Shown here: piece after piece, positions 39,365 through 53,792 of the stretch
Layout of the letters: every line of letters begins with the position of its first letter
How positions within the stretch are numbered: position 1 is the stretch's first letter
Virus record (IMG/VR): IMGVR_UViG_3300028676_000003
Coordinates: 186,001 to 250,000 of that record
Direction: 5' to 3' (one strand)
Length of the DNA: 64,000 nt
Source of the DNA: a virus
Notes under the pieces: generated by a model
Database searches by the model: none
The model's input: the letters and a program-made list of their open reading frames with translations, nothing else
What the model was told of the DNA's origin: nothing
Translations under genes and position numbers: made by a program

Positions 39365-40043
39365 ATGGGAAAACTTAATTTAGAAATCCGTGACGCAGAA
39401 GGTGGAACTGATGCGAAGTTGTTAGTAAGTGTGATGAAAGAAATCTACACGAAAACAGCTAAAAATAACAATTTAGAATGTACAGTAGTTGAGGAAAGAA
39501 ATGGGTTCGCCCATCTATGTCTTTAGCGGGGCTGATGTAGATAAAATATTCGGAAACGAAGTAGGAAACCACAGATGGCAAAGGGTACCGCCTACGGAAA
39601 AGAAGGGTAGAGTTCACACAAGTTCTATTACAGTTGCAATTCTAGGAGAAAACGATTATCAAGAGGTTGAAATATACCCAAGTGAATATCGCTTAGAAAC
39701 AACAAGAGGAACAGGAAACGGTGGACAACATAAGAATTCAACAGATTCTTGTGTGGTTGTAACTCACATTTCAACTGGAATAAAGGTTGTAAGAGATGGA
39801 AGGGACCAACATAAAAACAAAGCAGAAGCACTAAAAGAAATTCATTTAAGAGTTAATAATTTCTACAAGACAGGTCACGATGATGCGGCCAGTCAAGAAA
39901 GAAAAGAACAAATAGGTGACGGTGGACGTAGTGATAAAAGAAGAACGTATAGAGTTAAGGACTCATTAGTAATTGACCACGTAACGAATAAAACTGCTTC
40001 AATGAAGGACATATTAAGAGGTAAAATTGAACTATTATCATAA
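39365..40043 (+). CDS. RF1-type peptide chain release factor with programmed +1 frameshift
   Basis: Frame 0 gives 53 codons (MGKLNLEIRDAEGGTDAKLL...) to CTT TAG at 39521-39526. Skipping T39524 continues as SGADVDKIFGNEVGNHRWQR to a 225-residue release factor. The joined product matches class I factor domains 2-4: the RVPPTEKKGRVHTS block carries a PxT codon-recognition motif (RF1 type, UAA/UAG), and TGNGGQHKN is the catalytic GGQ. Domain 1 is missing, as in other short phage or PrfH-like factors. Neither half alone is a functional factor. The slip site resembles prfB CUU UGA C but with UAG. Confidence 0.85.
39521..39527 (+). promoter_or_regulatory. Programmed +1 frameshift site CTT TAG C
   Basis: The slippery CTT followed by TAG and C has the same layout as prfB CTT TGA C. 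No Shine-Dalgarno-like stimulator is seen upstream. Confidence 0.75.
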
Positions 40044-40258
40044 TGAAATTAGGACGTAAAAATAGAGTAATTGATTGGGAAGTGATAGGTGTAAATGTCT
40101 TAGGATTTAACCCATCAATGAGACCAAAATTTATAGACATAGAAGTAGATTTACATCTTGTAGATAAGCTTTGGGTACCAGTTGGTAATTCTAGTACTAA
40201 TATTCATACGAGAATAAGTGATACAAACATCTTTGATTATATTAAAAAAGGCTCCTAA
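40043..40258 (+). CDS. Small protein of an LG-W-type paralogous group
   Basis: A 71-residue protein starting on the stop of the release factor (TAATG). The pattern MKLGRK...DWEVIG...LGF...DKLWVPVG is shared loosely with two small proteins just downstream. Function unknown. Confidence 0.5.
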   Translation: MKLGRKNRVIDWEVIGVNVLGFNPSMRPKFIDIEVDLHLVDKLWVPVGNSSTNIHTRISDTNIFDYIKKGS

Positions 40259-40272
40259 TTAGGAGCTTTTTT
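40246..40272 (+). terminator. Rho-independent terminator
   Basis: GCTCCT-AATT-AGGAGC stem followed by T-run; overlaps the end of the preceding gene. Confidence 0.8.
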
Positions 40273-40274
40273 AT

Positions 40275-40305
40275 TTGCACTATGTTAAAAAAAATAGTAC
40301 CTTTG
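40275..40305 (+). promoter_or_regulatory. Bacteroidota-type promoter
   Basis: TTG at 40275 and TACCTTTG at 40298-40305. Confidence 0.7.
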
Positions 40306-40326
40306 TTAAACTTAAAAACAAATAAA

Positions 40327-40392
40327 ATGGCAGGATTAATTTTACTTATCTTCATCATGTTAATGATGAGTGATAGCAATAACAGAAGATAA
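40327..40392 (+). CDS. 21-residue membrane microprotein
   Basis: MAGLILLIFIMLMMSDSNNR plus Arg: a single hydrophobic helix with a short polar basic tail. It is the first frame after a strong promoter and its TAA overlaps the ATG of the next gene, supporting translation. Confidence 0.45.
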   Translation: MAGLILLIFIMLMMSDSNNRR

Positions 40393-40658
40393 TGGAAGAA
40401 ATTACAGAATTAACGTCTGAAAATGTAGAAGAAATAGTTTTAAACTATAAAACAAAGCATTTAGCTGGGTTTACAAGAGTTGAATTACTAGCCTTATTGG
40501 AAAAGTATTCGATTGATGTGGACCATTTCTACGATAAATTAGGTGTAAATACCGTTATGGTAATCGAAACTGAAGTTGTAACCTATCATTGCGATATTCT
40601 AAAAGGGTTACGATGTGTAATTGAAAATAGAGAACAAACCTACGAAGAATGGGATTAG
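40392..40658 (+). CDS. Small acidic protein
   Basis: An 88-residue protein, helical then beta; unrecognised. Coupled to the microprotein upstream, and its TAG stop lies inside the next gene. Confidence 0.5.
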   Translation: MEEITELTSENVEEIVLNYKTKHLAGFTRVELLALLEKYSIDVDHFYDKLGVNTVMVIETEVVTYHCDILKGLRCVIENREQTYEEWD

Positions 40659-40858
40659 TACTTGGTGAAAGACTTCTTCAAGAAGAATGGTCTAGCTTAG
40701 GAACACAAATAATGGGTTTCAGGATAAGTACTTGGACAGTTGGAATTGCCAGTGATGAAATTGAAGCTATGGTTCATCATAAATTATGGATTCCATTATG
40801 TGAGAAAATAACTGAATCATTAGATGCTAGAAATCAAATACGATATGGTTTTAGGTAA
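40649..40858 (+). CDS. Small LG-W-type protein
   Basis: A 69-residue protein (LGERLLQEEWSSLGTQIMGF...HHKLWIPL). It shares the LG..W..G..LGF..LW-P layout with the 71-residue protein at 40.0 kb and the next gene, suggesting tandem paralogues. Overlaps neighbours on both sides. Confidence 0.5.
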   Translation: MGLVLGERLLQEEWSSLGTQIMGFRISTWTVGIASDEIEAMVHHKLWIPLCEKITESLDARNQIRYGFR

Positions 40859-41021
40859 AAAACTTCCAATTAGACATTGGACCGATATAGGTAAATGTCT
40901 ATTACATAGAGATATATCAGACCCATATAATTTTATAGTTAATATGGAAATTGATAGAATGATTAATATGATGGTTTGGAGTAGGGTTGGTAGGACAATA
41001 GTTTTTCAGCCTACGATATGA
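40845..41021 (+). CDS. Small LG-W-type protein
   Basis: A 58-residue protein (MVLGKKLPIRHWTDIGKCLL), the third member of the small paralogous group. I choose the ATG whose sequence aligns with the other two. Overlaps by 4 bp with the SLOG-like gene. Confidence 0.45.
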   Translation: MVLGKKLPIRHWTDIGKCLLHRDISDPYNFIVNMEIDRMINMMVWSRVGRTIVFQPTI

Positions 41022-41497
41022 GAGTAGCTGGAACAGGTCATAGACCTGATAAACTAGGTGGTTATTCAAATAAGATGCATTTAAATCTTGTTTCAATAGC
41101 AGAAGAAGCTCTTAAGAAGATTAAACCAACTGAAGTTATATCAGGGATGGCGATGGGGTGGGATATGGCACTAGCGCAAGCGGCAATTAACCTTGGAATA
41201 CCACTAATAGCGGCTGTTCCGTTCAAAGGACAAGAAAAAGCGTGGTTTGAGAAGACTCAAAAATATTATCATAGCTTACTATCTAAGGCGAAAGAGATTG
41301 TAATTGTTTCTGAAGGTGGATTTACCAAGGGAAAGATGCAAATTAGGAATGAATGGATGGTTGATAACTGTGATTTGGTGTTGTCGATGCATAATGGCGA
41401 CAAATTTGGTGGAACCTTCAACTGTATAACATACATTGAGAATAAAAAGAAACCAAATATTAATTTATATACAAAACTTAAAATAGAAAATGAATAA
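41018..41497 (+). CDS. SLOG-superfamily protein (YpsA/DUF1273-like)
   Basis: A 159-residue Rossmann-like protein. VAGTGHRPDKLGG at the start, ISGMAMGWDMALAQAA (~42-57) and NEWMVDNCDLVLSMHNG with a GGT phosphate-binding turn match SLOG proteins that bind nucleotides or their derivatives. Cellular role in phages unknown; possibly nucleotide sensing or salvage, given the adjacent dNMP kinase gene. Confidence 0.7.
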   Translation: MRVAGTGHRPDKLGGYSNKMHLNLVSIAEEALKKIKPTEVISGMAMGWDMALAQAAINLGIPLIAAVPFKGQEKAWFEKTQKYYHSLLSKAKEIVIVSEGGFTKGKMQIRNEWMVDNCDLVLSMHNGDKFGGTFNCITYIENKKKPNINLYTKLKIENE

Positions 41498-42002
41498 ATT
41501 TAAAAGATTACTTATCATAGGCCATGCTCGCCATGGGAAAGATACCTTTGCTGAAATTCTTGAGGAACACTACGGACTTAAATTCGTATCATCATCACAA
41601 GCGGCCGCAGATATCTTCATATTTGATGAGTTAAAAGACAAGTATGGTTATGAAACATCAGTAGAGTGTTTCGAAGACCGAGTAAATCACAGACCTGAAT
41701 GGTATGAGATGATTTGCGATTACAATAAAGACGATAAAGCTAGACTAGCTAAGGGAATCCTTGAAATGGCTGATTGTTATGTTGGAATGAGAGATAGAGG
41801 TGAAATACTTGAATGTATGAATCAAAAATTGTTTGATATTATCATTTGGGTAGATGCAAGTGAAAGACTTGAGCTAGAAGAAGCCTCATCATTCAACATT
41901 GATAAAAAAGATGCTGATTTTATTGTTGATAACAATGGAACACTTGAACAATTTACAGATAAGGTAATCCGTATTGGTAAACTATTGTTGAAAAATGACT
42001 AA
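41490..42002 (+). CDS. Deoxynucleoside monophosphate kinase
   Basis: A 170-residue P-loop kinase: GHARHGKDTFAEIL (~11-24) is the Walker A, and the lid/substrate segments (RPEWYEMICDYN; DIIIWVDASERLE) resemble phage dNMP kinases such as T4 gp1. It would phosphorylate dNMPs to feed phage DNA synthesis. Overlaps the SLOG gene by 8 bp. Confidence 0.75.
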   Translation: MNKFKRLLIIGHARHGKDTFAEILEEHYGLKFVSSSQAAADIFIFDELKDKYGYETSVECFEDRVNHRPEWYEMICDYNKDDKARLAKGILEMADCYVGMRDRGEILECMNQKLFDIIIWVDASERLELEEASSFNIDKKDADFIVDNNGTLEQFTDKVIRIGKLLLKND

Positions 42003-42264
42003 GACAGAATTTATTGGGTTTTTGAAATCAAAAGCTATCGAATTACAACATGTTTCACATTGGGTCCAATCTTTTGAAGGAACTGATGAACATTGGACCC
42101 TTTATAGACCAAGTGTTGATTGGTTAGAAGATAGAATGGACCTATCTAATGAAGGTATTGTAAAGATAATTTACTCTGAAGCCTTTTATGATGACCCAAA
42201 GTCACTTGAAATGTCGTATGAAGAGTTTGTTGAAGATTACTCAAAATCAGTAGGTTACGTTTAA
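41995..42264 (+). CDS. Small hypothetical protein
   Basis: An 89-residue protein with aromatic and acidic residues; unrecognised. Overlaps the kinase gene by 8 bp, so co-translated. Confidence 0.5.
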   Translation: MTKTEFIGFLKSKAIELQHVSHWVQSFEGTDEHWTLYRPSVDWLEDRMDLSNEGIVKIIYSEAFYDDPKSLEMSYEEFVEDYSKSVGYV

Positions 42265-42298
42265 AAATAAAAATAATATAAAAAAAGATACAAAAAAG

Positions 42299-42329
42299 TT
42301 TGGTAGTTCAAAATATTATTGTACCTTTG
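42299..42329 (+). promoter_or_regulatory. Bacteroidota-type promoter
   Basis: TTTGG at 42299 and TACCTTTG at 42322-42329; it sets the next start at ATG 42346. Confidence 0.7.
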
Positions 42330-42345
42330 TAAAAGAAATCAGAAC

Positions 42346-42558
42346 ATGAATACACAAAAAATTATCAAGGCTTTAAATTCTGAAATAGGAATTAAGATTT
42401 TTATATTTGTTATGACATTTATAATCGGTGGAATATTTTTCCTAGCCTTAAAACAAATTTACGTTAGAGAATGGTACGATTTGTTATTATCACTAATAAT
42501 TGTTATAGCAAATGCTATCGGGATTAGAAGAGAATTTAAAAAATTAACAAAAAAATAA
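42346..42558 (+). CDS. Small membrane protein
   Basis: A 70-residue protein with two hydrophobic spans (~16-36 and ~44-60) and a basic tail. Unrecognised; paired with another small membrane protein one base downstream. Confidence 0.55.
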   Translation: MNTQKIIKALNSEIGIKIFIFVMTFIIGGIFFLALKQIYVREWYDLLLSLIIVIANAIGIRREFKKLTKK

Positions 42559-42559
42559 T

Positions 42560-42748
42560 ATGAAAAACGAAAATTGGTTTAAAGCATTTTTATTTATACA
42601 AATATTTATGATTCCAGTATTTTTAGTTGGAACTATATTACATATAAATGCAGGTGAATGGTTTATGGCGACATTAACAAGTATACTAGTTGTATCTCAT
42701 TGTTATATTGCTAGTTACAAGTTAAAAAAATTAACTTTTAAAAAATAA
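42560..42748 (+). CDS. Small membrane protein
   Basis: A 62-residue protein with two hydrophobic spans (~8-28 and ~33-52) and a Lys-rich tail, similar in build to its upstream neighbour. Function unknown. Confidence 0.55.
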   Translation: MKNENWFKAFLFIQIFMIPVFLVGTILHINAGEWFMATLTSILVVSHCYIASYKLKKLTFKK

Positions 42749-42760
42749 TTGAAAAAATAT

Positions 42761-42791
42761 TTGTTTTATAAAATAATTATTATTACCTTTG
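42761..42791 (+). promoter_or_regulatory. Promoter of suppressor tRNA
   Basis: TTG at 42761 and TACCTTTG at 42784-42791. The tRNA begins 12 nt after the -7 box, so it is the first product of the transcript. Confidence 0.75.
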
Positions 42792-42803
42792 TAAAACAAA
42801 ATC

Positions 42804-42878
42804 GGTTCGATAGCTTTAATTGGTCAGAGCAGCGGACTCTAAATCCGAAGGTTGTGGGTTCGAACCCCACTCGAATCA
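42804..42878 (+). tRNA. Amber suppressor tRNA (anticodon CUA)
   Basis: A complete cloverleaf: acceptor GGTTCGA/TCGAATC, D stem GCTT/GAGC, anticodon stem CGGA/TCCG, loop CTCTAAA with U33 and anticodon CTA at 42839-42841, T-arm GTGGG-TTCGAAC-CCCAC, discriminator A. CUA pairs with UAG. The 27-43 pair is G-A, otherwise all stems pair. The cognate amino acid cannot be read from sequence. CCA is not encoded; the phage CCA-adding enzyme is 1.8 kb away. Directly downstream is a gene with an in-frame UAG. Confidence 0.9.
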
Positions 42879-42891
42879 CAAACAATACCAA

Positions 42892-43065
42892 ATGGAAAAA
42901 TTTATAGTTTTATTTATCATAGCAATTATTGCAACATTTTTTTGTCTATTAAGATTATCTAATGTAAATAAAGAGACTATTTCTAGAATTAATTCGTTTG
43001 ATATTGACAAATTTAAAAAATTGAATATATTTATAAACAAAGATAAAACAAATATCATGAAGTAG
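42892..43065 (+). CDS. Small membrane protein ending in TAG in frame with the PTH2-like domain
   Basis: A 57-residue protein: an N-terminal hydrophobic helix (FIVLFIIAIIATFFCLL) and a polar, Lys-rich remainder. The TAG at 43063-43065 is in frame with the following hydrolase-like frame, so read-through would produce a membrane-anchored fusion. I use the ATG after the tRNA, not an earlier codon within it. Confidence 0.55.
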   Translation: MEKFIVLFIIAIIATFFCLLRLSNVNKETISRINSFDIDKFKKLNIFINKDKTNIMK

Positions 43066-43407
43066 ATTAACAATCAAAAATTAAGAGTTGTCACAAGACG
43101 TGACTTATCAATTGCTTATCAAGCAGTTCAATCAGCGCATGCCGCTATCGATTTCCAACACGAACATCCTGTTGAAGCGAAAGAATGGCAAACATATTCA
43201 AACTACTTAGCGGTTCTTACCGTTGCTGATGAACAATCACTAATTAAATTAATTACAAAAGCTATCCTTACTGGTGTCAAGCATACAGTGTTCCGTGAAC
43301 CTGATATTGACAATCAAATAACTGCTGTTGCTTTTGAACCAACTGAACAAGCTAAAAAATTAACTAGTTCATGTCCATTATTAGGAAAGGAGTTGGAAAA
43401 TGCTTAA
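43057..43407 (+). CDS. Peptidyl-tRNA hydrolase (PTH2-like) frame interrupted by an in-frame amber codon
   Basis: After ATG AAG TAG the frame continues for 113 codons: INNQKLRVVTRRDLSIAYQA, QSAHAAIDF, LAVLTVADEQSLIKL, and VFREPDIDNQITAVAF. This matches the layout of Pth2 proteins (N-terminal RxDL strand, AQ-AHAA helix, conserved D..Q-A end strand). There is no ATG, GTG or TTG after the TAG upstream of conserved sequence, so expression needs read-through or an AUU start. Pth2 frees tRNA from dropped-off peptidyl-tRNA. The amber suppressor tRNA gene is 180 bp upstream. Confidence 0.65.
43063..43065 (+). other. In-frame amber codon before PTH2-like domain
   Basis: TAG in the frame joining a 57-codon membrane segment and the 113-codon hydrolase-like segment. 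Confidence 0.8.
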
Positions 43408-43663
43408 TTTAACGATTGATTCAAGAACTGAAATTATATTACATTTCAACAAGATGCATTTACAAGACCCTGAAATCCCTATGTGGGTAATCAAGGCCAA
43501 GGGTGAATCACATTATGTACACCACGTAGATGTAGACGCAGGAATAGGGTTTTCAACAAAAGAAACACCTAATAACCCTCATACCAAGGGCTCATTGAAG
43601 TTCAAGGGTAAATTAGAAATAAAAACAACAGAAGAAGAAATAACTGCAAGGATTTATCCTTGA
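43400..43663 (+). CDS. Small beta-rich protein
   Basis: An 87-residue protein (YVHHVDVDAGIGFSTKETPN) whose ATG lies in the end of the hydrolase-like gene, so coupled translation is likely and indirectly supports that that frame is translated. Function unknown. Confidence 0.5.
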   Translation: MLNLTIDSRTEIILHFNKMHLQDPEIPMWVIKAKGESHYVHHVDVDAGIGFSTKETPNNPHTKGSLKFKGKLEIKTTEEEITARIYP

Positions 43664-43668
43664 TAAAA

Positions 43669-43740
43669 GGTGGAGTGGTCAAATGGTAAGGCACCGATTT
43701 GCACAATCGGAGATTCGTGGTTCGAACCCACGCTCCACCT
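43669..43740 (+). tRNA. tRNA-Cys (GCA)
   Basis: Acceptor GGTGGAG/CTCCACC, anticodon loop TTGCACA, T-arm CGTGG-TTCGAAC-CCACG, discriminator U as expected for Cys. Confidence 0.9.
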
Positions 43741-43756
43741 CTAAAATGTAAAAATT

Positions 43757-43954
43757 ATGGCATTAATGTATTATGGTGGCGGGTTTCCAGCCGAAATTGA
43801 GGTTTTGGAAACAATCAATTCAAATTTGGAATCTTTTATTAGTAAAATTAAAGAACCAAATAATGTTTTAAGTGAAGAAGATAGAAACTTCATAAATGAA
43901 CTATATAAATTAAGTGATAAATTTTTCTTTTTAAAGAAATACATTAACAAGTAA
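43757..43954 (+). CDS. Small helical protein
   Basis: A 65-residue protein (SNLESFISKIKEPNNVLSEE) between two tRNA-Cys genes. Unrecognised. Confidence 0.45.
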   Translation: MALMYYGGGFPAEIEVLETINSNLESFISKIKEPNNVLSEEDRNFINELYKLSDKFFFLKKYINK

Positions 43955-43960
43955 AATAAT

Positions 43961-44033
43961 GGTGAAGTAGTCAAGATGGCAAAGGCGCAGTCTCGCACAG
44001 ACTGAGGCAGAGGTTCAAATCCTTTCTTCACCT
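43961..44033 (+). tRNA. Second tRNA-Cys (GCA), variant loop
   Basis: Acceptor GGTGAAG/CTTCACC, anticodon stem CAGTC/GACTG, loop TCGCACA (C in place of U33), discriminator U. Identity Cys is likely; activity less sure because of C33. Confidence 0.7.
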
Positions 44034-44182
44034 CAATAATGAACATAATATTAACTTAAAAACTAGAAATCATGAAATAGATTCTTAACAAACCGCCTTA
44101 ATTTAGTTGTATGACTTGGACAAGTCAGCTGAGCTGACAAAATTAAAAAATAACAATTATATAAATTAAATTAAGACAAATT

Positions 44183-44551
44183 ATGAAAACATTAGAACAA
44201 AAATTAAACGAAACAAAAGAATACTTAGCAAAATCAGCACAACACTTATTTGTTGTAAACGATACACAAATCACAAAGGTTATCTTATTTACTAGAGATG
44301 GTAAAGAATACTTTGCAAAATTGGTTATCAATGGAGAAAAGGTTTATTTAAACACTTACTCAGCTGAGCAAATGAAATGGGATGTGAAATACACATTATT
44401 TCCACAATACGTGAAAACGAAATCTATTCCTTATTTTAAGGCTATGAAAGAAATCGTTGCAAACGTTGAGGCTAAGATTCAAGTTGGTGACAACTCAGCT
44501 TTGATTGCAGAAATTCAATCACAAGTTAAGAAATTAGAATTAGTTAAATAA
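44183..44551 (+). CDS. Hypothetical protein
   Basis: A 122-residue charged alpha/beta protein (QITKVILFTRDGKEYFAKLV). Unrecognised. The ~150 bp before it contain only a short GTCAGC/GCTGAC hairpin and no gene I can support. Confidence 0.55.
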   Translation: MKTLEQKLNETKEYLAKSAQHLFVVNDTQITKVILFTRDGKEYFAKLVINGEKVYLNTYSAEQMKWDVKYTLFPQYVKTKSIPYFKAMKEIVANVEAKIQVGDNSALIAEIQSQVKKLELVK

Positions 44552-44553
44552 TT

Positions 44554-44646: not shown

Positions 44647-45765
44647 ATGGAAAAAAGACTTAGATTTGACATGGAGCTTCCGAAAGACATACGACTTATT
44701 CAAGAAACCTTTAAAAAACACGGTTTCAAGCTATATGTTGTTGGTGGAGCTGTTCGTGATGCTTACATGGGTCTTAGACCTAAAGATTACGATTTAGCTA
44801 CGAATGCATTTCCTGGGGTGGTTGAGGATATTATGAGAGAACTTCACATAAGAACACTAGCTACTGGTAAAGCATTTGGAGTAATAAACGCCTTTACTAA
44901 CGATGATGAGTACGAAATTGCTACATTCAGAGAAGATATTGGTAGCGGACGTAGACCTGAAGGTGTTGTTTTTACAACAATTGAAGGAGACGTTAAAAGA
45001 CGTGACTTGACAATCAACGCATTGTTCTACGATATTGAAGAAGGATTGATTATCGACCTTGTAGGTGGACTTGATGATATTGACAACAAGGTAGTAAGAA
45101 CTGTTGGTTCTGCAGAGGATAGATTTGATGAAGATAGACTTAGAATCCTAAGAGCTGTTAGATTTGCTGGTAGATTCGGTTCAGATTTGGATATTGAAAT
45201 TCAAGAAACACTTGAAAAATTCCCAAGTCTAGAAGAAATTTCAGGTGAAAGAATCAGAGATGAATTCATCAAAGGAATCAAATCAGCTAAGTCACTTAGA
45301 CACTTCTTAAGAATGATTAAGAAATTTCAACTATTTGCATGGATATTCCCTGAACTATCAGTAAGTGGTAGATTCTTTGAAACTAATGACCCAATAATAG
45401 CGATATCAATCCTATTAGCTCAACATAACAAGGCTGAATTGATGCCGAAGGTTCTAGACAAGCTAAAATACTCAAAAGATGAAATCAAAGCAATTATGTT
45501 TTTGAACTCTCTTTGTACTATAGATGTAACAAATGTTATTGCAGTTAAAAGACAACAAAAAAACTCAGGTCTTAAAGATGCTCAAATTAGAGAGTTTGCT
45601 AGACTTGCGGGATTGAGTGGAATACTAATTGATGCTTTCTTGGATTTTAATTTAAGTGTAAGTGGTAGTCAATTGATGGAAGAAAGAGGAATTCCACAGG
45701 GGCCTGAAGTAGGTAGACTTGTTGAACAAATTGAAAGAAATATTTTTACCAAGATGTTATTCTAA
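44647..45765 (+). CDS. cca: CCA-adding tRNA nucleotidyltransferase
   Basis: A 372-residue class II nucleotidyltransferase. LYVVGGAVRDAYMG (~28-41), DYDLATNA (metal D-x-D), the second block TFREDIGSGRRPEGV, RRDLTINALFYD and the template motif EDRLRILRAVRFAGRFG are all intact. It adds the 3' CCA. None of the tRNAs in this window encodes a full CCA, so the enzyme matures phage tRNAs and repairs damaged ones. The C-terminal domain is shorter than in host enzymes. Confidence 0.93.
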   Translation: MEKRLRFDMELPKDIRLIQETFKKHGFKLYVVGGAVRDAYMGLRPKDYDLATNAFPGVVEDIMRELHIRTLATGKAFGVINAFTNDDEYEIATFREDIGSGRRPEGVVFTTIEGDVKRRDLTINALFYDIEEGLIIDLVGGLDDIDNKVVRTVGSAEDRFDEDRLRILRAVRFAGRFGSDLDIEIQETLEKFPSLEEISGERIRDEFIKGIKSAKSLRHFLRMIKKFQLFAWIFPELSVSGRFFETNDPIIAISILLAQHNKAELMPKVLDKLKYSKDEIKAIMFLNSLCTIDVTNVIAVKRQQKNSGLKDAQIREFARLAGLSGILIDAFLDFNLSVSGSQLMEERGIPQGPEVGRLVEQIERNIFTKMLF

Positions 45766-48463: not shown

Positions 48464-48649
48464 GTGGGAGATTTAGTAAGAAACTTAGGAAGAGAAAAAA
48501 GTGTTAACTTAGTTAAAGATTTTGACTTGATAGTGGATAAATATAGACAGATTGCAGATGCCAGTGGATATCATGGAGAATTGAAGTTCCAAAAAGAAGG
48601 TGGATTTACAATAGTGTTCGTTGAAATTAAAAATGAAATAAAAGAATAG
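48464..48649 (+). CDS. Small protein with GTG start
   Basis: A 61-residue alpha/beta protein (VKDFDLIVDKYRQIADASGY...GGFTIVFVEIKN). There is no upstream ATG. Its TAG stop overlaps the first bases of the tRNA-Ser. Unrecognised. Confidence 0.45.
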   Translation: MGDLVRNLGREKSVNLVKDFDLIVDKYRQIADASGYHGELKFQKEGGFTIVFVEIKNEIKE

Positions 48650-48730
48650 AGGATTCGCATAATGGTATTGCAACAGTCTTGAAAACTGTATCGGGAAACT
48701 GATTTGTCGGTTCGACCCCGACATCCTCTG
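48648..48730 (+). tRNA. tRNA-Ser (TGA)
   Basis: Acceptor AGAGGAT/ATCCTCT, anticodon loop CTTGAAA, long variable arm, discriminator G. Confidence 0.9.
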
Positions 48731-48738
48731 CAAAATAC

Positions 48739-48811
48739 ACGGCTATGGTGTTTAACGGTAGCATAGGGGACTCCAAATCCTTTGGTGTGGGTTCGAAACC
48801 TACTAGCCGTG
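48739..48811 (+). tRNA. tRNA-Trp (CCA)
   Basis: Acceptor ACGGCTA/TAGCCGT, anticodon loop CTCCAAA, discriminator G as expected for Trp. Confidence 0.9.
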
Positions 48812-48821
48812 CTAATTTTTT

Positions 48822-48894
48822 GGTCTAGTAGCTCCAATGGTAGAGCGGCACCCTGTTAAGGTGAGGCGTGTAGGTTCGAATCCTACCTAGACCG
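48822..48894 (+). tRNA. tRNA-Asn (GTT)
   Basis: Acceptor GGTCTAG/CTAGACC, anticodon loop CTGTTAA, discriminator G. Confidence 0.9.
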
Positions 48895-48901
48895 CAAGAA
48901 T

Positions 48902-48991
48902 GGAGAGGTTAGCCGAGTTGGCCTAGCGGCAGCGGTCTTGAAAACCGAGGGCCTGTAAAAGGGTGTGTGGGTTCGAGTCCCACTCTCTCCG
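48902..48991 (+). tRNA. tRNA-Ser (TGA), second copy
   Basis: Acceptor GGAGAGG/TCTCTCC, loop CTTGAAA, long variable arm, discriminator G. It differs from the other Ser tRNA in most stems, so it is not a recent duplicate. Confidence 0.85.
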
Positions 48992-49011
48992 CAAAAAAAA
49001 GTGAAAATAAA

Positions 49012-49043
49012 TTTGGTGGTCTCGAAATAAAGTATTACCTTTG
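49012..49043 (+). promoter_or_regulatory. Bacteroidota-type promoter in tRNA array
   Basis: TTTGG at 49012 and TACCTTTG at 49036-49043; about 115 nt of leader without a gene precede the next tRNA. Confidence 0.65.
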
Positions 49044-49165
49044 TAGTAACAAAAATAGTGTGATGCTTCCTCCTCTGATTTATCATGAAAGTAGTCTCGA
49101 TAAGCGCAGGGCCCGTGACTTATACGGTGGTTGGTAACATACCATAAAGCAAATGTTACAAATAT

Positions 49166-49252
49166 GGTGTTCATAGAAGCGTAACGGTAGCGTGCTTGGT
49201 TGTGAGCCAAGTGGTAGGAATACTCCTGCGGGTTCGAATCCCGTTGTACACC
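49166..49252 (+). tRNA. tRNA-His (GTG) with long variable arm
   Basis: Acceptor GTGTTCA/TGTACAC with one mismatch, extra 5' G (G-1) opposite C73 as in His tRNAs, anticodon loop TTGTGAG. The variable region is about 16 nt and can form AGGA-ATAC-TCCT, unusual for His. Confidence 0.75.
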
Positions 49253-49261
49253 CAATTATAT

Positions 49262-49336
49262 GGTGGCTATAGCTCAGTCGGTTAGAGCATCGGTTTGTGG
49301 TACCGAGGGTCGTGGGTTCGAGCCCCACTAGTCACC
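49262..49336 (+). tRNA. tRNA-His (GTG)
   Basis: Canonical: G-1 with C73, acceptor GTGGCTA/TAGTCAC, anticodon loop TTGTGGT, normal variable loop. Confidence 0.88.
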
Positions 49337-49342
49337 CAATAT

Positions 49343-49418
49343 TCCGTAGAGGCAAGTCAGGTATGTATAGCTATAACCCGATTAGAAGGAGAAAGTGGTT
49401 CGAATCCACCCCATGGAG
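49343..49418 (+). tRNA. Degenerate tRNA-like element
   Basis: Acceptor TCCGTAG/CCATGGA (one mismatch) and T-loop TTCGAAT with GTGG/CCAC are present. I find no normal 5-bp anticodon stem; T1-A72 and G73 recall tRNA-Gln. Function uncertain. Confidence 0.4.
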
Positions 49419-49423
49419 CAAAT

Positions 49424-49518
49424 TTATTTAGTAAGTCAAAAGAGTAAACTGGGTATTGACTGCTGTATACAAGCGGTAACCTAAGGAGGTGTGCAGGTTC
49501 GAATCCTGTCTAAATAAC
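49424..49518 (+). tRNA. tRNA-like, possibly Tyr, enlarged D-arm and long variable arm
   Basis: Perfect acceptor TTATTTA/TAAATAA, T-arm GCAGG-TTCGAAT-CCTGT and variable hairpin ACCT-AAGG-AGGT. The D-arm AGTCAA/TTGACT has a large loop. The anticodon loop contains TGTATA but does not fold canonically. Class II shape and GTA suggest Tyr. Confidence 0.45.
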
Positions 49519-49542
49519 AAATGATTATTGAAGAGAAACATT

Positions 49543-49743
49543 ATGGACAAATGGACATATGATAAAACAGTAAGAGAATTGGTTCAAAATATTAAGAATT
49601 ATGAAATTCATGCCGCTAGAGAAATTAAAAACAACGAAGTAGCAAGAAAGGATAAGGTTAGAAATAACTCCCAAGAATATCTTTTAATATGTAAACAACG
49701 ATACAAGGATTTTACAGGAGAAGATTATCAACAAGAAACTTAA
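49543..49743 (+). CDS. Small basic helical protein
   Basis: A 66-residue Lys/Arg/Asn-rich protein (IKNNEVARKDKVRNNSQEYL) following the tRNA-like pair. Unrecognised. Confidence 0.45.
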   Translation: MDKWTYDKTVRELVQNIKNYEIHAAREIKNNEVARKDKVRNNSQEYLLICKQRYKDFTGEDYQQET

Positions 49744-49753
49744 TCTAACGATT

Positions 49754-50005
49754 ATGGAAGAGAAGATAGAACAATTGGAAGAAGAAATAATCGAGTTGAA
49801 GTATCAGCTTAAGAAAGCCAAGGATAAAGAATTAATCTACTTGGATATACTTTCAAATGTTTATTCTGCATTAAGAACCCTCTTCAAAAGAGAGGAAGAA
49901 AATGAGAGATTTAAACTAGGAGATATTATCAACTTTAGAGAGAATCTTGTAAACCTAAAAACGTCACTGGATGACTACATTAGGATTTATAAATTGAGAT
50001 TATGA
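49754..50005 (+). CDS. Small coiled-coil protein
   Basis: An 83-residue protein with a heptad-rich first half (EKIEQLEEEIIELKYQLKKA), probably dimeric. Unrecognised. Confidence 0.5.
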   Translation: MEEKIEQLEEEIIELKYQLKKAKDKELIYLDILSNVYSALRTLFKREEENERFKLGDIINFRENLVNLKTSLDDYIRIYKLRL

Positions 50006-50056
50006 AACAAGAATTTGATATGCTTTGAGGTCTACTAAACAATAGACTGAAAAGTT

Positions 50057-50251
50057 ATGAGTGTAAATCGAAACAGAGCCAAATATAAAAAGGCTACGAC
50101 AAATCATGAATATTTATCTATGCAAGATAATTTCTTATTCAACGATTGGTATTGGGAAGATTACGGAAGTAAAAAAAGTGGTATCTACACATGGAAATAC
50201 AGAATGTATAGAACGTGGAAATACAACAGAAAAACACAATGGAAGCCCTAG
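50057..50251 (+). CDS. Small aromatic, basic protein
   Basis: A 64-residue protein rich in Tyr, Trp, Lys and Arg (FNDWYWEDYGSKKSGIYTWK). It may bind nucleic acid. Ends in TAG shortly before tRNA-Ile. Confidence 0.45.
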   Translation: MSVNRNRAKYKKATTNHEYLSMQDNFLFNDWYWEDYGSKKSGIYTWKYRMYRTWKYNRKTQWKP

Positions 50252-50262
50252 GTTTCCAAAAT

Positions 50263-50336
50263 AGGCAGTTAGCTCAACTGGTTAGAGCACCTCGCTGATA
50301 CCGAGGAGGTTATGAGTTCGACTCTCATATTGCCTA
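50263..50336 (+). tRNA. tRNA-Ile (GAT)
   Basis: Acceptor AGGCAGT/ATTGCCT, anticodon arm CCTCG-CTGATAC-CGAGG, discriminator A. Confidence 0.88.
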
Positions 50337-50338
50337 CA

Positions 50339-50593
50339 ATGAAAAGAGAATTTACATCGAACGAAAAGGAGTTTGTGGAAGCAATTGTTGGATTATTTAT
50401 CCTTTTGCCAAACCCTGAATTAAATAGCCGTAAAGGTGAAGTAATGAAGGTTGCCTATGACGTTTTAAATAAGCTCTTGGATGAATATGTTCCTGAACCT
50501 GAGAGAGAACTCACGGAAGAGGAATTAGAAGAAATCGAATTCAATGATATGTATTATCAATACCTATTAGAAGACGATGAAGAAGAAATATAA
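50339..50593 (+). CDS. Small acidic protein
   Basis: An 84-residue protein with a helical N-terminal part and a Glu-rich tail (ELTEEELEEIEFNDMYYQYL). Its ATG lies two bases after tRNA-Ile and its stop abuts the next tRNA. Unrecognised. Confidence 0.5.
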   Translation: MKREFTSNEKEFVEAIVGLFILLPNPELNSRKGEVMKVAYDVLNKLLDEYVPEPERELTEEELEEIEFNDMYYQYLLEDDEEEI

Positions 50594-50667
50594 GGTCTTA
50601 TAGCTCAGTTGGTTAGAGCAGCTCGCTCATAACGAGAAGGTCACAGGTTCGAGTCCTGTTTGGACCA
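50594..50667 (+). tRNA. tRNA with CAT anticodon (Met or Ile2)
   Basis: Acceptor GGTCTTA/TTGGACC with one mismatch, anticodon arm CTCG-CTCATAA-CGAG. Elongator Met or lysidine-modified Ile2 cannot be separated here. Confidence 0.8.
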
Positions 50668-50673
50668 CAATAT

Positions 50674-50756
50674 AGTGATGTGGATGAATGGTTTAGTCGC
50701 CAGCCTGATACGCTGGGTACGCAAGTACAACGTGGGTTCGAGCCCCACCGTCACTA
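50674..50756 (+). tRNA. Class II tRNA with GAT anticodon
   Basis: Acceptor AGTGATG/CGTCACT, anticodon arm CCAGC-CTGATAC-GCTGG, variable hairpin GTAC-GCAA-GTAC, T-arm GTGGG-TTCGAGC-CCCAC, discriminator A. A long variable arm is normal for Ser, Leu or Tyr, not for an Ile anticodon. Confidence 0.7.
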
Positions 50757-50894
50757 CAAGGAGTAATGCTTGTTGGAACAAGATTATGGAAGGTTAGCTC
50801 AACCCTAACTTGAAGTAAAGGAGTTTGATTTTTGGCTCGCCCGCTTGTAGGGTTGTGTTCAAAAATACAGCAAGGGTTGACATTGCTCACTTAT
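50757..50894 (+). other. Structured intergenic segment in tRNA array
   Basis: About 138 nt without an ORF. Hairpins CTTGTT-GG-AACAAG and AGGTTAG/CTAACTT are visible, and the two ends (GGAGTAA, TTATTCTCC) are complementary. It may be a remnant or an unusual RNA; I recognise nothing. Confidence 0.3.
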
Positions 50895-50968
50895 TCTCCT
50901 GTAGCTCAGTTGGTTAGAGCGGCACCCTGTTAAGGTGAGGGTCACAGGTTCGAATCCTGTCAGGAGAG
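50895..50968 (+). tRNA. tRNA-Asn (GTT), second copy
   Basis: Acceptor TCTCCTG/CAGGAGA, anticodon arm CACC-CTGTTAA-GGTG, discriminator G. Confidence 0.88.
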
Positions 50969-50997
50969 CAAAATGATTAACTTTTTTAATTAATCAG

Positions 50998-51005
50998 ATA
51001 TTTAT
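50998..51005 (+). promoter_or_regulatory. Late-type promoter motif ATATTTAT
   Basis: 14 nt before the HNH gene ATG. Confidence 0.6.
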
Positions 51006-51019
51006 AATAAAAGAATATT

Positions 51020-51388
51020 ATGAATACTGAAATTAAAGAATGTAGAAATCATGGAATAACTGAATTTGTTAAAAGAGCTGATGGTTATTGCAGATGTAAA
51101 AAATGTGCAGTAGATGCAGTAAACAAACGAAGAATAGTTTTGAAGGAAAAAGCTATTGAATACAAGGGTGGTGAATGTCAGGAATGTGGATATAAAAAAT
51201 CTAAAAGAGCGTTAGAATTTCATCATTTAGACCCAAATGAAAAGGATTTTGGTATATCAGCGAATGGTTATACAAGGTCTTGGGAAAAAGTAAAAAGTGA
51301 ATTAGATAAATGTATCTTATTGTGTGCAAATTGTCACGCTGAGAAACATGAAGAAATTGAAAAGAATAAAAAGGATGGGTTGCTTTAG
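51020..51388 (+). CDS. HNH endonuclease
   Basis: A 122-residue protein with CQECGY (~53-58), the catalytic LEFHHLD (~69-75), and CANCHAEKHEE (~105-115), the zinc-binding HNH fold. An N-terminal CRCKKC pair may form another knuckle. Free-standing HNH genes between tRNAs are common mobile homing elements in phages. Its 3' end overlaps the next tRNA by 16 bp, and it ends in TAG. Confidence 0.85.
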   Translation: MNTEIKECRNHGITEFVKRADGYCRCKKCAVDAVNKRRIVLKEKAIEYKGGECQECGYKKSKRALEFHHLDPNEKDFGISANGYTRSWEKVKSELDKCILLCANCHAEKHEEIEKNKKDGLL

Positions 51389-51459
51389 TTGGTCGAAAAG
51401 TCTAGACTGTTAATCTAGTGAGCATTGCTCCACCGTGGGTTCGAATCCCACCCTGTCCT
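51373..51459 (+). tRNA. Class II tRNA with GTT anticodon
   Basis: Acceptor GGATGGG/CCTGTCC, anticodon arm CTAGA-CTGTTAA-TCTAG, variable hairpin GAGC-ATT-GCTC, T-arm GTGGG-TTCGAAT-CCCAC, discriminator T. The long variable arm is not expected with an Asn anticodon. Confidence 0.65.
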
Positions 51460-51472
51460 CAAAATAAAATAT

Positions 51473-51634
51473 ATGAAATTAGGTAAAAGATTTGATATTA
51501 TCCCATCACCTGTTAATATTAACAGCAAAACAATTGTATTTTGTAATGAAATGTCAAAAAAAATTGATGTAGTTAATGCACCAAAGACATATGAAAGAGT
51601 ATTTATAATTAGAACTTCAGAATTATGGATTTAG
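51473..51634 (+). CDS. Small protein
   Basis: A 53-residue protein starting MKLGKRFDIIPSPVN; I take the ATG after the tRNA. It recalls the MxLG starts of small proteins near 40 kb. Its TAG stop is overlapped by the next ATG. Confidence 0.45.
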   Translation: MKLGKRFDIIPSPVNINSKTIVFCNEMSKKIDVVNAPKTYERVFIIRTSELWI

Positions 51635-51819
51635 GTGAAGAAATACTAAGAAGACAATATAAAGATGAAAGTTTACCTGATTTTACTAGTAGTTTTTGTA
51701 CTATTATGGTTAACATTATAGATGAAACAATAGAGAATTATCCAAAAATATATAGTAATCCTGAAATTAGTATGTTTTTTGATTTTCTAGAATTAAAACG
51801 TTCAAAAGATTTTAAATAA
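51625..51819 (+). CDS. Small acidic protein
   Basis: A 64-residue protein (MDLGEEILRRQYKDESLPDF) coupled to the preceding gene. Unrecognised. Confidence 0.45.
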   Translation: MDLGEEILRRQYKDESLPDFTSSFCTIMVNIIDETIENYPKIYSNPEISMFFDFLELKRSKDFK

Positions 51820-51821
51820 TA

Positions 51822-51897
51822 TGGCGCAATGGTAGAGGCGGCTTCTTACGCTACTCTCATAAGGTAGAGACACTGGTTCGAGTCCAGTTTGCGCTAC
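51822..51897 (+). tRNA. tRNA-like with CAT anticodon
   Basis: Acceptor TGGCGCA/TGCGCTA, anticodon arm CTACT-CTCATAA-GGTAG, T-arm ACTGG-TTCGAGT-CCAGT. The D-arm is atypical, with GTAG/TTAC stem. Confidence 0.6.
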
Positions 51898-51909
51898 AAA
51901 ACACATAAC

Positions 51910-52335
51910 ATGGAAAAGCACGAAGAAAAGCTTGTTAAACATAGAGGTAGTAAAATACATGCTTTCAAGTATAAGTGGAAAGAAGAAAACGAAAAAGGAA
52001 AAGAAGTTGATAAGTCACAGATAGTATGTTTACTATATCGTGCTGGAAGCAAAAACCAACCTTTAAACCTTGGAGAAATGAGTGACGGAACACCATTTAT
52101 GGCAGTTGCACAAGCAGTCAACGAAGCTAAAAAGCTAGTTGATATGCGAATGACACCTGAATATCTTAAACTATACGGTAGGGATGTAATGGGTGTTGGT
52201 GAATATGTCAAAGAAGGTAGAAAATTCGTCTTTAAAACCGTTGAAGGTTTAAGACTTTGGAAATGTGAAGATAGATATTATTTCGTTAAAGATGGACAAG
52301 TTAGTCTTTTAACAAATAGTGTTTTAGATAAATAA
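51910..52335 (+). CDS. Hypothetical protein
   Basis: A 141-residue protein with a basic N-terminus (EEKLVKHRGSKIHAFKYKWK) and a beta-rich C-terminal half. I use the ATG after the tRNA. Unrecognised. Confidence 0.5.
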   Translation: MEKHEEKLVKHRGSKIHAFKYKWKEENEKGKEVDKSQIVCLLYRAGSKNQPLNLGEMSDGTPFMAVAQAVNEAKKLVDMRMTPEYLKLYGRDVMGVGEYVKEGRKFVFKTVEGLRLWKCEDRYYFVKDGQVSLLTNSVLDK

Positions 52336-52336
52336 T

Positions 52337-52410
52337 GGCGACATAGCTCAATTGGATAGAGCACTCGATTACGAATCGAGAGGTTGTAGGTTCGACCCCT
52401 ACTGCCGCTA
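52337..52410 (+). tRNA. tRNA-Arg (ACG)
   Basis: Anticodon arm CTCGA-TTACGAA-TCGAG, T-arm GTAGG-TTCGACC-CCTAC, discriminator A; acceptor has one mismatch. Confidence 0.85.
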
Positions 52411-52412
52411 CT

Positions 52413-52480
52413 AAGAGACAGGATTAAAATCTGAACGAGGTTACTTAGATAACAGGATATAAATCTGAACGAGGTCTCTT
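52413..52480 (+). repeat. Tandem 24-bp repeat flanked by inverted AAGAGAC/GTCTCTT
   Basis: Two copies of a 24-bp unit (ACAGGAT...GAACGAGGT) at 52418 and 52452, differing at two positions, separated by 10 bp. The block is bounded by inverted 7-mers, giving a large stem. Between tRNA-Arg genes; no ORF. Confidence 0.6.
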
Positions 52481-52484
52481 TTAA

Positions 52485-52557
52485 GCCTCCATAGCATAAA
52501 TGGAAATGCAACACCCTTCTAAGGTGTCCAATCGGGGTTCGAATCCCTGTGGGGGTA
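52485..52557 (+). tRNA. tRNA-Arg (TCT)
   Basis: Acceptor GCCTCCA/TGGGGGT, anticodon arm ACACC-CTTCTAA-GGTGT, discriminator A. Confidence 0.88.
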
Positions 52558-52571
52558 CAAAATTTAAATAT

Positions 52572-52778
52572 ATGAATAAAAAAATGTTTACATCGATATT
52601 AAATTATCCTGATGATAGGTCAATTGAAAGTGTTCATGCTTATGTTGATAAACATTTTAAAAACTATGATGTTTTTTTAATAACACATGTTGAAACTAAG
52701 GATTTGGATAAGACATATTTTAATCATGTTGATTATCCACATGGTGGTATTAAAGTATCATATATGAATAGATATTAA
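52572..52778 (+). CDS. Small protein
   Basis: A 68-residue protein (MNKKMFTSILNYPDDRSIES); the ATG after the tRNA is used. Unrecognised. Confidence 0.45.
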   Translation: MNKKMFTSILNYPDDRSIESVHAYVDKHFKNYDVFLITHVETKDLDKTYFNHVDYPHGGIKVSYMNRY

Positions 52779-52781
52779 GAT

Positions 52782-52982
52782 ATGGAAAAGAAAAAAGTTT
52801 ATAGAATTCGTGAAAAAGGAAAAACAGAATTTGTCTCATTAGGATATAACCGAAAAAACAAATGGAATGTATATCCGTCAGCGGCAATCAACACTTCAAT
52901 CAGAGAATCTGAAAAGGATAAATATGAAGTTGTTGTATTTGAATATGAATTAAAAGAAGTCTCAACTATAGACTTAAAATAA
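52782..52982 (+). CDS. Small basic beta-rich protein
   Basis: A 66-residue Lys-rich protein (KVYRIREKGKTEFVSLGYNR), four bases after the preceding gene. Unrecognised. Confidence 0.5.
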   Translation: MEKKKVYRIREKGKTEFVSLGYNRKNKWNVYPSAAINTSIRESEKDKYEVVVFEYELKEVSTIDLK

Positions 52983-52988
52983 TAAATT

Positions 52989-53075
52989 GGAAGGTAGTCT
53001 AATATTGGTTTGTGGTGGCACCCTGCTAAGGTGTTCCGTGTAACAGCGGTGAGGGTTCGATTCCCTTGCCTTCCG
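52989..53075 (+). tRNA. tRNA-Ser (GCT)
   Basis: Acceptor GGAAGGT/GCCTTCC, anticodon arm GCACC-CTGCTAA-GGTGT, long variable arm, discriminator G. Confidence 0.88.
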
Positions 53076-53098
53076 CTAAGTTTTTTAGTAATTTCGTA

Positions 53099-53106
53099 AT
53101 ATTTAT
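53099..53106 (+). promoter_or_regulatory. Late-type promoter motif ATATTTAT
   Basis: 14 nt before the ATG at 53121, which makes that ATG, not the internal one at 53310, the likely start. Confidence 0.65.
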
Positions 53107-53120
53107 ATTAAAAGTATAAT

Positions 53121-53792
53121 ATGGAATTTATAAAAAAACGTCTTAAAGAATCACTAGCAAATTCAATCTTAGAATCACTGCTTGATGAGGATTATCCATC
53201 TCAGTTCAATATGGAAGAATTCAAATAGTTAAACTCATTTAACAAAAGAATCAATTATTGTCAAGAGAATCTTAAAAGAATATCTTCAGGTTCTTCTAGA
53301 ATCGTTTATATGATAGACGATACCAAGGTATTAAAATTAGCCAAGAATCAAAAAGGACTTGCTCAAAATGAAGTCGAAATTCAATGGGGACAAGATAGCT
53401 ATTTTTCTAGCATCCTTGCTCATACCTTTGATTATCATCCAAACGACCAATGGGTTGAAATGGAACTTGCAAAGAAAGTAACAAAAGGAATATTTCAAAA
53501 CCATGTAGGTTATGATATCTACGAGGTTGGAGTTTATCTTCATAATCAATATGCTACCAACAATCCTTATAAAAAATTATCAAAATGGAATCAAGACCCA
53601 CAAATCAAAGCTGGGTTAGATGAAAATGAATTTACACAATCCATAATGGAATTCATGCTTCAAGTTGATGCGCCAGCTGGTGACTTCGGAAGACTTAGTT
53701 CTTATGGACTGGTTCAACGTGGTGGTCAAGATGATATTGTTCTTATTGACTTTGGAATCACTAGTGATGTTTATGATACTTATTATTCATAA
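53121..53792 (+). CDS. Kinase-fold-like phage protein with in-frame amber at codon 36
   Basis: From ATG 53121 the frame reads MEFIKKRLKESLANSILESL to codon 35, then TAG, then 187 codons without stop (LNSFNKRINYCQENLKRISS...). SSRIVYMIDDTKVLKLAKNQ resembles the first strands and VAIK-like Lys of a protein-kinase N-lobe, and LIDFGITSDV near the end resembles DFG. The next ATG (53310) would delete the first strand. Kinase fold inferred from these motifs only. L-x-E and I-L-E sites at the N-terminus resemble the other virion proteins. Read-through by the phage suppressor tRNA would restore a 223-residue product. Confidence 0.6.
53226..53228 (+). other. In-frame amber codon 36
   Basis: TAG in the frame linking the N-terminal 35 codons with the kinase-like domain. 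Confidence 0.8.

Follow-up and report, generated by a model that had tools for sequence, protein, structure and literature searches.

Introduction

Among described systems, the bacterial gene prfB, which encodes the release factor (RF) RF2, comes closest to part of the arrangement reported here: at CUU UGA C, with a Shine-Dalgarno (SD) sequence upstream, the ribosome slips by +1 past a stop that lies within the release-factor gene itself. Autoregulatory frameshifting has been shown for prfB and not for prfA, and TAG was found in the prfB motif in 0 of 8,164 genomes (PMC12421855). In this study, we analyzed positions 186001-250000 of a virus record totalling 368,549 bases (IMGVR_UViG_3300028676_000003); this whole stretch of 64,000 nucleotides (nt) is the window, and its numbering is used below. 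It contains a gene for an amber-reading tRNA, tRNA(CUA), a peptidyl-tRNA hydrolase 2 gene, pth2, with TAG as its third codon, and a release-factor gene divided at CTT-TAG-C. Our data suggest that, in phages, stop codons serve to switch genes involved in ending protein synthesis. We consider it probable that two stop-codon gates act on such genes, one opened by readthrough and the other by a frameshift with feedback.

Other systems share single elements with this locus. Phages with the stop-recoded code 15 likewise carry a tRNA(CUA) for UAG and release-factor genes (PMC13037316, PMC7162821), whereas the present genome uses the standard code and ties its suppressor to one gene. The jumbo phages XacN1 (PMC5852040) and Atu_ph07 (PMC6102473) encode suppressor tRNAs (CUA; UCA) and a peptidyl-tRNA hydrolase; the authors of the XacN1 study could not identify the genes targeted by its suppressor (PMC5852040). 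The Pth2-like stretch of XacN1 (ORF364, a fused protein) lacks TAG, and this comparison does not account for the XacN1 suppressor; the Pth of that paper is ORF295, which was not compared. A synthetic "leak dampener" (PMC7969014) likewise combines a suppressor tRNA with a nonsense-interrupted gene in a coherent feed-forward loop. That circuit was engineered, whereas the phage case is natural and conserved and its loop is predicted. The minigenes of lambda bar, which act through Pth, are likewise very short start-stop units linked with peptidyl-tRNA hydrolase; unlike them, the minigene-like unit described here is in frame with pth2 itself. A literature search, made largely without subscription papers and on partly available texts, found no description of a gated phage Pth or of a recoded phage release factor.

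Results and discussion

An in-frame TAG interrupts pth2 downstream of an amber-reading tRNA gene

The first gate comprises three features of the window.

42804..42878, + strand: tRNA(CUA), amber-reading, found by ARAGORN and by Rfam RF00005 (61 bits), with a cloverleaf fold and CCA not encoded.
43057..43407, + strand: pth2, peptidyl-tRNA hydrolase 2, read as ATG-AAG-TAG-(113 codons)-TAA and identified by Pfam and fold.
43063..43065, + strand: in-frame TAG gate of pth2, a layout present in 69/100 non-redundant Pth2 loci.

The pth2 gene begins 178 nt downstream of the tRNA(CUA) gene on the same strand. Its ATG at 43057 is followed by AAG and, at 43063, by TAG, after which 113 codons without ATG run to a TAA at 43405. 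The product matches Pth2 (PF01981) with 32 bits against a cutoff of 23, and its AlphaFold2 (AF2) model has a predicted local distance difference test score (pLDDT) of 95.4. The top matches of a fold search, with archaeal peptidyl-tRNA hydrolases among them, were MJ0051 (3e-8), the AF2095 peptidyl-tRNA hydrolase (8e-8) and Bit1 (1e-7), which we take to be human Pth2. By profile and modeled fold, the frame after TAG 43063 encodes Pth2, with predicted hydrolase activity; what we take to be the catalytic Lys of archaeal Pth2 seems to be replaced within the conserved G-Y-Q stretch of the alignment. The tRNA has a canonical fold with a CUA anticodon and is predicted to read UAG. "tRNA-Pyl" is merely ARAGORN's label for CUA, and a pyrrolysine system was dismissed, since PF01409 (PylRS) had no match in this record and the control matched in 14/14.

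Other sequences adjoin the gate. A 57-codon open reading frame (ORF) resembling a membrane peptide (42892-43062) lies in the pth2 frame and is terminated by the gating TAG; in most relatives listed, this region contains stops. Genes for tRNA-Cys at 43669-43741 and 43961-44034 adjoin pth2 and recur in relatives, some of which have a 6-base loop ("ga").

The amber layout recurs in viral pth2 genes

A first scan recovered 26 viral Pth2 relatives with identity down to 45%, and all 26 consist of a start, few codons, TAG and then Pth2. The search patterns of the profile scans, for Pth2 and for the release factor, lie 3' of the stops and therefore do not select for gating. In a profile scan covering the best 80 of 88 loci, 47 have start-(n)-TAG without a later ATG and two (L154 and L207) have it with a later ATG; 30 lack the amber layout and one is cut by a contig end. 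The amber class thus comprises 49/80 loci with L154 and L207 included, leaving 31 others; the automated "normal" class of 29 had taken in L154 and L207. Pooling gave 124 Pth2 loci, 18 of them from phage records, and 100 once near-copies had been dropped; these were recognized from the sequence flanking the stop or junction, and species was not considered. The layout start-(0 to 8 codons)-TAG-Pth2 is present in 69 of these 100; 68 meet the computed criteria, and the other, from Tenacibaculum phage pT24, lies one codon beyond the distance limit. TAA or TGA at the place of the gate, with a start codon up to 10 codons ahead of it, occurs in 0 of the 100.

Gated genes occur in pT24, in the huge-phage genomes LR756500, LR756501, LR745206 and LR756504, in Mycobacterium phages Cane17, I3, Myrna, Phabba and ScoobyDoobyDoo, and in Cronobacter phage GAP32, Pectobacterium phage CBB, Serratia phage BF and Erwinia phage pEa_SNUABM_19. 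Stenotrophomonas phage CM1, Aeromonas phage avDM6 and Lak-B7 have ungated Pth2, and XacN1 has the fused form. Annotation tends to conceal the gate in public phage records. Among ten named records of the amber type, five (pT24, GAP32, CBB, BF and pEa_SNUABM_19) omit pth2 or begin it well inside, 32 codons past TAG in GAP32 and 43 in pT24, apparently because of the in-frame TAG (L319, L320, L321, L322 and L125); in the five mycobacteriophages, the annotated start is the GTG after TAG.

An unbiased scan of nine whole or partial genomes looked for ATG at most 9 codons before a stop, with 80 or more open and coding-like codons after the stop, the first 30 without ATG. All seven TAG hits were pth2, one per genome; there were also four TGA hits, one being the release factor of genome G007, and four TAA hits. 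The same codon stands in dozens of phages, and the pth2 TAG, as judged from these alignments, exceeds chance.

In pT24 (L125), Pth2 has a C-terminal extension that by eye resembles the segment that precedes Pth2 in the fusions of CM1 (L135) and XacN1 (L323), as if the domains were in swapped order. The possibility that some ungated GC-rich Pth2 loci are frame-shift fusions with an upstream gene was dismissed; ATG and an SD-like tract are present (three loci translated).

tRNA(CUA) accompanies the gated pth2

In the first scan, tRNA(CUA) was found in 24/26 loci, in 16 of them at most 300 nt upstream of pth2. Among the profile-scan loci, it lies near pth2 in 41/49 of the amber class and in 5/31 of the others (Fisher p=1.8e-9, with no correction for relatedness and with class labels assigned by hand from layout). 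Eight of the nine genomes examined have Pth2 (G000, G004, G007, G009, G010, G016, pT24 and GAP32), and all eight carry both the amber pth2 and tRNA(CUA); G012 has neither. In pT24, ARAGORN finds three tRNAs in all, tRNA(CUA) among them, and in the named mycobacteriophages tRNA(CUA) lies directly downstream of pth2. The acceptor ends vary between phages, and the inserted amino acid therefore need not be conserved.

Where Pth2 genes contain extra in-frame stops, these match the local suppressor: TAG in L152/L153, L203 and L122, and TGA in L187, beside two tRNA(UCA). Two stops of L056, a release-factor locus, were set aside in this analysis, as both come after an indel. At many ungated Pth2 loci (L156-L187), tRNA genes read as UCA or ambiguously for UCA and resemble opal suppressors.

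A short RF1-like release factor is divided at CTT-TAG-C

The second gate lies upstream of the first in the window.

39365..39526, + strand: zero-frame 5' part of the short RF1-like release factor, ending at TAG 39524-39526; PCRF profile 103-144.
39521..39527, + strand: CTT-TAG-C, putative +1 frameshift site; it mirrors the prfB CTT-TGA-C and is found in relatives.
39525..40043, + strand: +1-frame 3' part of the release factor, with the rest of PCRF including the PPT motif and the RF-1 domain with GGQ.

The two pieces hit successive stretches of the PCRF profile, 103-144 and then 158-194. A single +1 step between them yields a 225-amino-acid (aa) protein with an unbroken PCRF match (57.6 bits) and an RF-1 domain, so that a CUU-stop site is followed by a homologous protein continuing in the +1 frame, as in prfB. 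Against the PDB, the closest match of the fused protein is RF1 (1.4e-38), with the best RF2 at 3.6e-24; RF1 models also score best in NCBIfam, and PPT and GGQ are invariant in 12 aligned release factors. The fused protein begins at PCRF profile position 103 and is not a full-length RF1 with N-terminal domain 1. The prfA model was applied to the 184-aa downstream part by itself, which reached 164 bits where the cutoff is 423. By its sequence, the factor is a short RF1-like protein without domain 1. The proposal that a release factor of this phage is interrupted at UAG holds: it is RF1-like, its frames split at CTT-TAG-C, and recoding would be required to make it whole.

Relatives of this gene were sought in two scans. 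In the first, of 17 loci, four have CTT-TAG-C with a +1 shift and 13 have an in-frame TGA or TAG. In the second, the best 80 of 142 profile matches gave 67 non-redundant loci, of which 39 need a +1 shift. The shift is at CTT-stop in 38, with TGA in 24, TAG in 13 and TAA in one, and L235 has TGA ahead of a CTTTAGC site. In-frame stops occur in 24 loci and L271 is the sole open frame; L244 is disturbed by an indel, and L285 and L287 lack the anchor motif yet have CTTTGA in the right frame. As in prfB, many of these phages have an SD-like tract just before CUU (29/41 listed CTTT-stop sites); three listed sites, L230, L253 and L254, come from in-frame loci and are probably chance. Unlike prfB, the gene encodes an RF1-like factor (PxT motif) without domain 1, its stop may be UAG or UGA and in one case UAA, and some relatives hold in-frame stops instead of a shift site. 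These last include the huge phages LR745206, LR756501, LR756502 and LR756504; LR756511 has none.

In a tree of 64 rows, one of them open, the type of recoding switches no fewer than 19 times, where the least possible is 6 and the shuffled mean 32. By eye, the recognition motif shows no link with the gating stop: PPT is the same in all 64 rows listed, a uniformity partly built in, as PPTE belonged to one of the two search patterns. Recoding of the release factor recurs in dozens of phages and, on this comparative evidence, exceeds chance.

Further details concern individual genes. In-frame TGAs of relatives align with Cys codons of the window gene. Some 3 kb away from its recoded gene, G007 has another copy, which is broken and contains a TAA (G007:C1 51923-52204). 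The RF-1 matches of Cane17 and Myrna were set aside, because they represent a small GGQ protein and a match of low score and do not correspond to this factor.

The gates are separable and a third UAG-interrupted gene is lineage-specific

The original prediction had placed a second UAG-interrupted gene, a kinase, within the same circuit.

53121..53792, + strand: kinase-like gene starting at ATG 53121, with an in-frame TAG at 53226-53228; PHROG 4301 (function unknown).

This gene has no Pfam match, and the label "kinase-like" reflects motifs that we presume to be those of kinases. Both TAGs are real, and of the two the pth2 TAG is conserved; the kinase TAG is lineage-specific, its position being AAT, TCA or ACA in relatives and TAG solely in the near-identical contig L037/G001. 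It may be a substitution tolerated owing to the presence of the suppressor. A coding-potential scan for genes crossing stops recovered pth2 and missed the kinase-like gene. In a filtered cross-genome tblastn scan, the convincing in-gene stops among the matches listed were those of the release factor, pth2 and the kinase; the unfiltered scan was dominated by shadow frames.

The two gates also occur separately. Phages pT24, GAP32 and I3 have tRNA(CUA) and a gated pth2 with no RF-1 match, and G012 has a recoded release factor with no tRNA(CUA) and no Pth2 match. Within the clade of the window, the modules are frequently neighbors: in the first release-factor scan, tRNA(CUA) lies at most 4 kb downstream of the gene in 7/17 loci (L020, L021, L023, L024, L026, L031 and L032). 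The remaining ten include some short loci, and a distance of about 11 kb separates tRNA(CUA) from the release-factor gene in G007 (L030). From these distributions, the suppressor tRNA goes with pth2 and not with the release factor. The expected co-occurrence in related phages was thus found for the tRNA(CUA)-pth2 pair, in unrelated phages too, and not for all four elements. The view of a single four-part circuit is not supported, as the kinase TAG is lineage-specific, the release factors of relatives mostly carry UGA, and the modules are separable.

Proposed mechanism

On the basis of these data, we provide a putative mechanism for the two gates. Synthesis of Pth2 would require the phage tRNA(CUA) to decode the UAG at codon 3 ahead of termination by RF1. 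tRNA(CUA) would be transcribed, CCA-tailed by a phage enzyme and charged, and Pth2 would then appear, its output rising with the suppressor level and falling with RF1 activity. The two genes are perhaps on one transcript, and the position of the tRNA gene upstream on the same strand would thus create a coherent feed-forward loop. Pth2 could free peptidyl-tRNAs that drop off during stop suppression or slow termination. The RF1-like factor would be made solely when a ribosome pausing at CUU-UAG-C slips by +1, and an RF1-type product terminating at UAG would reduce its own synthesis, like RF2 in prfB. In this phage, the two gates would work against one another: decoding of the release-factor UAG by the suppressor would keep the ribosome in frame 0, where it reaches UGA at the third codon after, and RF1 would reduce UAG readthrough in pth2. 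The benefit may be to limit synthesis of Pth2 and the release factor to times when stops are overridden or termination is slow. The proposal is least secure for the second gate in UGA-gated relatives, where either the factor would also read UGA or the gene would sense termination by host RF2.

A broader reading is attractive, and we advance it tentatively, as somewhat short of an even prospect. Many standard-code phages would carry a dedicated suppressor tRNA mainly to open pth2 through a UAG at codons 2 to 10 (mostly 3 or 4), with anticodon and stop co-evolving (CUA/UAG, and perhaps UCA/UGA in L187). Short release factors would remain dependent on recoding even as their gating stop switches among UGA, UAG and UAA; from this switching, a factor of broad or all-stop specificity is predicted, despite the RF1-like PPT.

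If true, natural suppressor-gated genes exist and are common, including in isolated phages of ordinary laboratory hosts. The pth2 gate would offer a function for suppressor tRNAs in non-recoded phages, a matter left open for XacN1 (PMC5852040). The second gate would carry release-factor self-regulation from RF2 to RF1-like factors (PMC12421855), and it raises the question of which stop codons short phage release factors read.

Several observations speak against the two-gate mechanism. tRNA(CUA) was absent from the stretch examined in 8/49 amber loci (L201 has it further out, as L061), no tRNA(CUA) lies within about 7.5 kb in LR745206 and LR756504, and it is present at 5/31 ungated loci. A second, longer and apparently ungated Pth2 open frame exists in G018 and G022, an ATG follows the TAG in L154 and L207, and the amber pth2 of G009 (ATG-ACA-CAT-TAG) escaped the unbiased scan. 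Among the 68 amber loci, ATT, ATC or ATA follows TAG in 36 and GTG in five, so that translation could start at that codon there; the GTG of the mycobacteriophages has fair SD spacing. On the side of the release factor, most relatives are interrupted by UGA, not UAG, and UGA is not expected to be read by an RF1-type factor; simple self-feedback therefore fails to cover the family. The CUU-UAG-C of the window has no SD-like tract upstream. The hairpin preceding this site does not exceed shuffled sequences in strength, for which reason a stimulatory hairpin was dismissed.

The second Pth2 frames just mentioned lie at G018:C1 284482-284910 and G022:C1 45174-45590 (164 and 168 aa) and score far above the gated copies.

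Alternative explanations

For the release factor alone, a different account comes close to balancing with ours, though we lean slightly away from it. The gate would be the stop at which host termination is poor, UGA for RF2 or UAG for RF1, and the gene would thereby sense a general failure of termination and restore it, with no feedback from its own product. In favor of this account, UGA sites outnumber UAG sites with an identical PPT motif, and the in-frame UGAs listed are followed by C or A. Set against this, a CUU-stop with an SD-like tract upstream, as in many relatives, is the self-feedback design of prfB (PMC12421855).

It is unlikely that the pth2 TAG closes a start-stop leader. In such a leader, ribosomes would start at ATG and stop at the near TAG, followed by re-initiation or a direct start at the next codon, and TAG would serve leader-peptide or re-initiation control without readthrough. 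The ATT, ATC, ATA and GTG codons counted above favor this account. So do the ATG-TAG-GTG or GTG-TAG-GTG of the Mycobacterium phages, in which purines form a tract some 7 nt ahead of the second start, and the two-codon minigene, reminiscent of lambda bar. However, the next codon is GTA, GTT, AAT, AAC, AGC, ACT, ACA, AAA, CTG or ACG in 26/68, mostly non-starts. The gating stop is always in frame and always TAG, whereas a leader could take any stop in any frame, and tRNA(CUA) adjoins pth2. In Cane17 and I3, moreover, a pair resembling the promoter consensus (TTGACA-18-TACCGT or TACTGT) ends six bases before ATG and would give a leaderless mRNA beginning AUG-UAG. The codon after TAG is Ile or Val in 55/68, encoded by six codons that include the non-starts GTA and GTT. 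Suppression is better before purines, and the base after TAG is A in 48, G in 19, C in one and T in none of the 68 loci. U after a stop lowers readthrough (PMC5289835). Taken together, these sequence contexts make readthrough appear likelier than a start after the stop.

A recoded genetic code, in which TAG encodes an amino acid and the gating TAGs are ordinary sense codons, is very improbable. The presence of tRNA(CUA), the rarity of TAG as a stop (24/368 ORFs of at least 100 aa in this genome) and the likeness of the kinase TAG to a tolerated sense substitution would fit it, as would the 34.5-kb contig G006, which gains 5.5 points of coverage under code 15 and has no TGA-ended ORF of at least 100 aa. 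However, the part of this genome covered by ORFs of 100 aa or longer grows by just 1.3 points under code 4 and 1.9 points under code 15 (0.766 to 0.785), and all three stops end selected ORFs of 250 aa or longer (TAA 117, TGA 3 and TAG 2). The gain under these codes spans 0.7 to 5.5 points over eight records, and TGA-ended ORFs are found in all but G006 (7/8). TAG-ended ORFs of this size occur in 8/8 records, TAG ends one clear 663-aa ORF, and all seven TAG hits of the unbiased scan are pth2. Global recoding was dismissed given the small coverage gain and the TAG-ended ORFs in every record; the genome uses the standard code and not code 15.

Assembly or sequencing errors or decaying genes are a negligible prospect, even though many loci come from metagenomic contigs, the L056/L244 release factor has an extra indel and the second G007 copy is broken, because one and the same codon is shared by dozens of contigs as well as by isolated phages, and the protein is conserved downstream of it.

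Genomic context and minor observations

Two further genes of the window belong to the context of the gates.

37383..37757, + strand: tmRNA, Rfam RF00023 (66 bits); rescue machinery.
44647..45765, + strand: tRNA nucleotidyltransferase (CCA-adding), Pfam PF01743 (118 bits), PHROG 2244.

The CCA-adding enzyme is relevant because tRNA(CUA) has no encoded CCA. Matches in ARAGORN, Rfam and Pfam bear out the earlier claim that a UAG-reading tRNA, a tmRNA and a CCA enzyme are all present, and an SmpB gene is found in the genome outside these window elements. The last 100 bases of the record are found again at 47-146, and comparison of the record ends gave no exact terminal repeat.

ARAGORN reports 62 tRNA genes in the record. 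Four tRNA-like genes have 6- or 8-base anticodon loops (G000:C1 49566-49639, 281534-281619, 287024-287095 and 298254-298327), one of them reading "agga" with an 8-base loop; they are possibly frame-changing or unusual tRNAs. Finally, a 240-aa ORF ending in TAG (G000:C1 78148-78870) is overlapped by a coding-like frame from 78843, with 290 codons, TGA at its head and no ATG for 114 codons, which makes a second programmed shift possible at this site.

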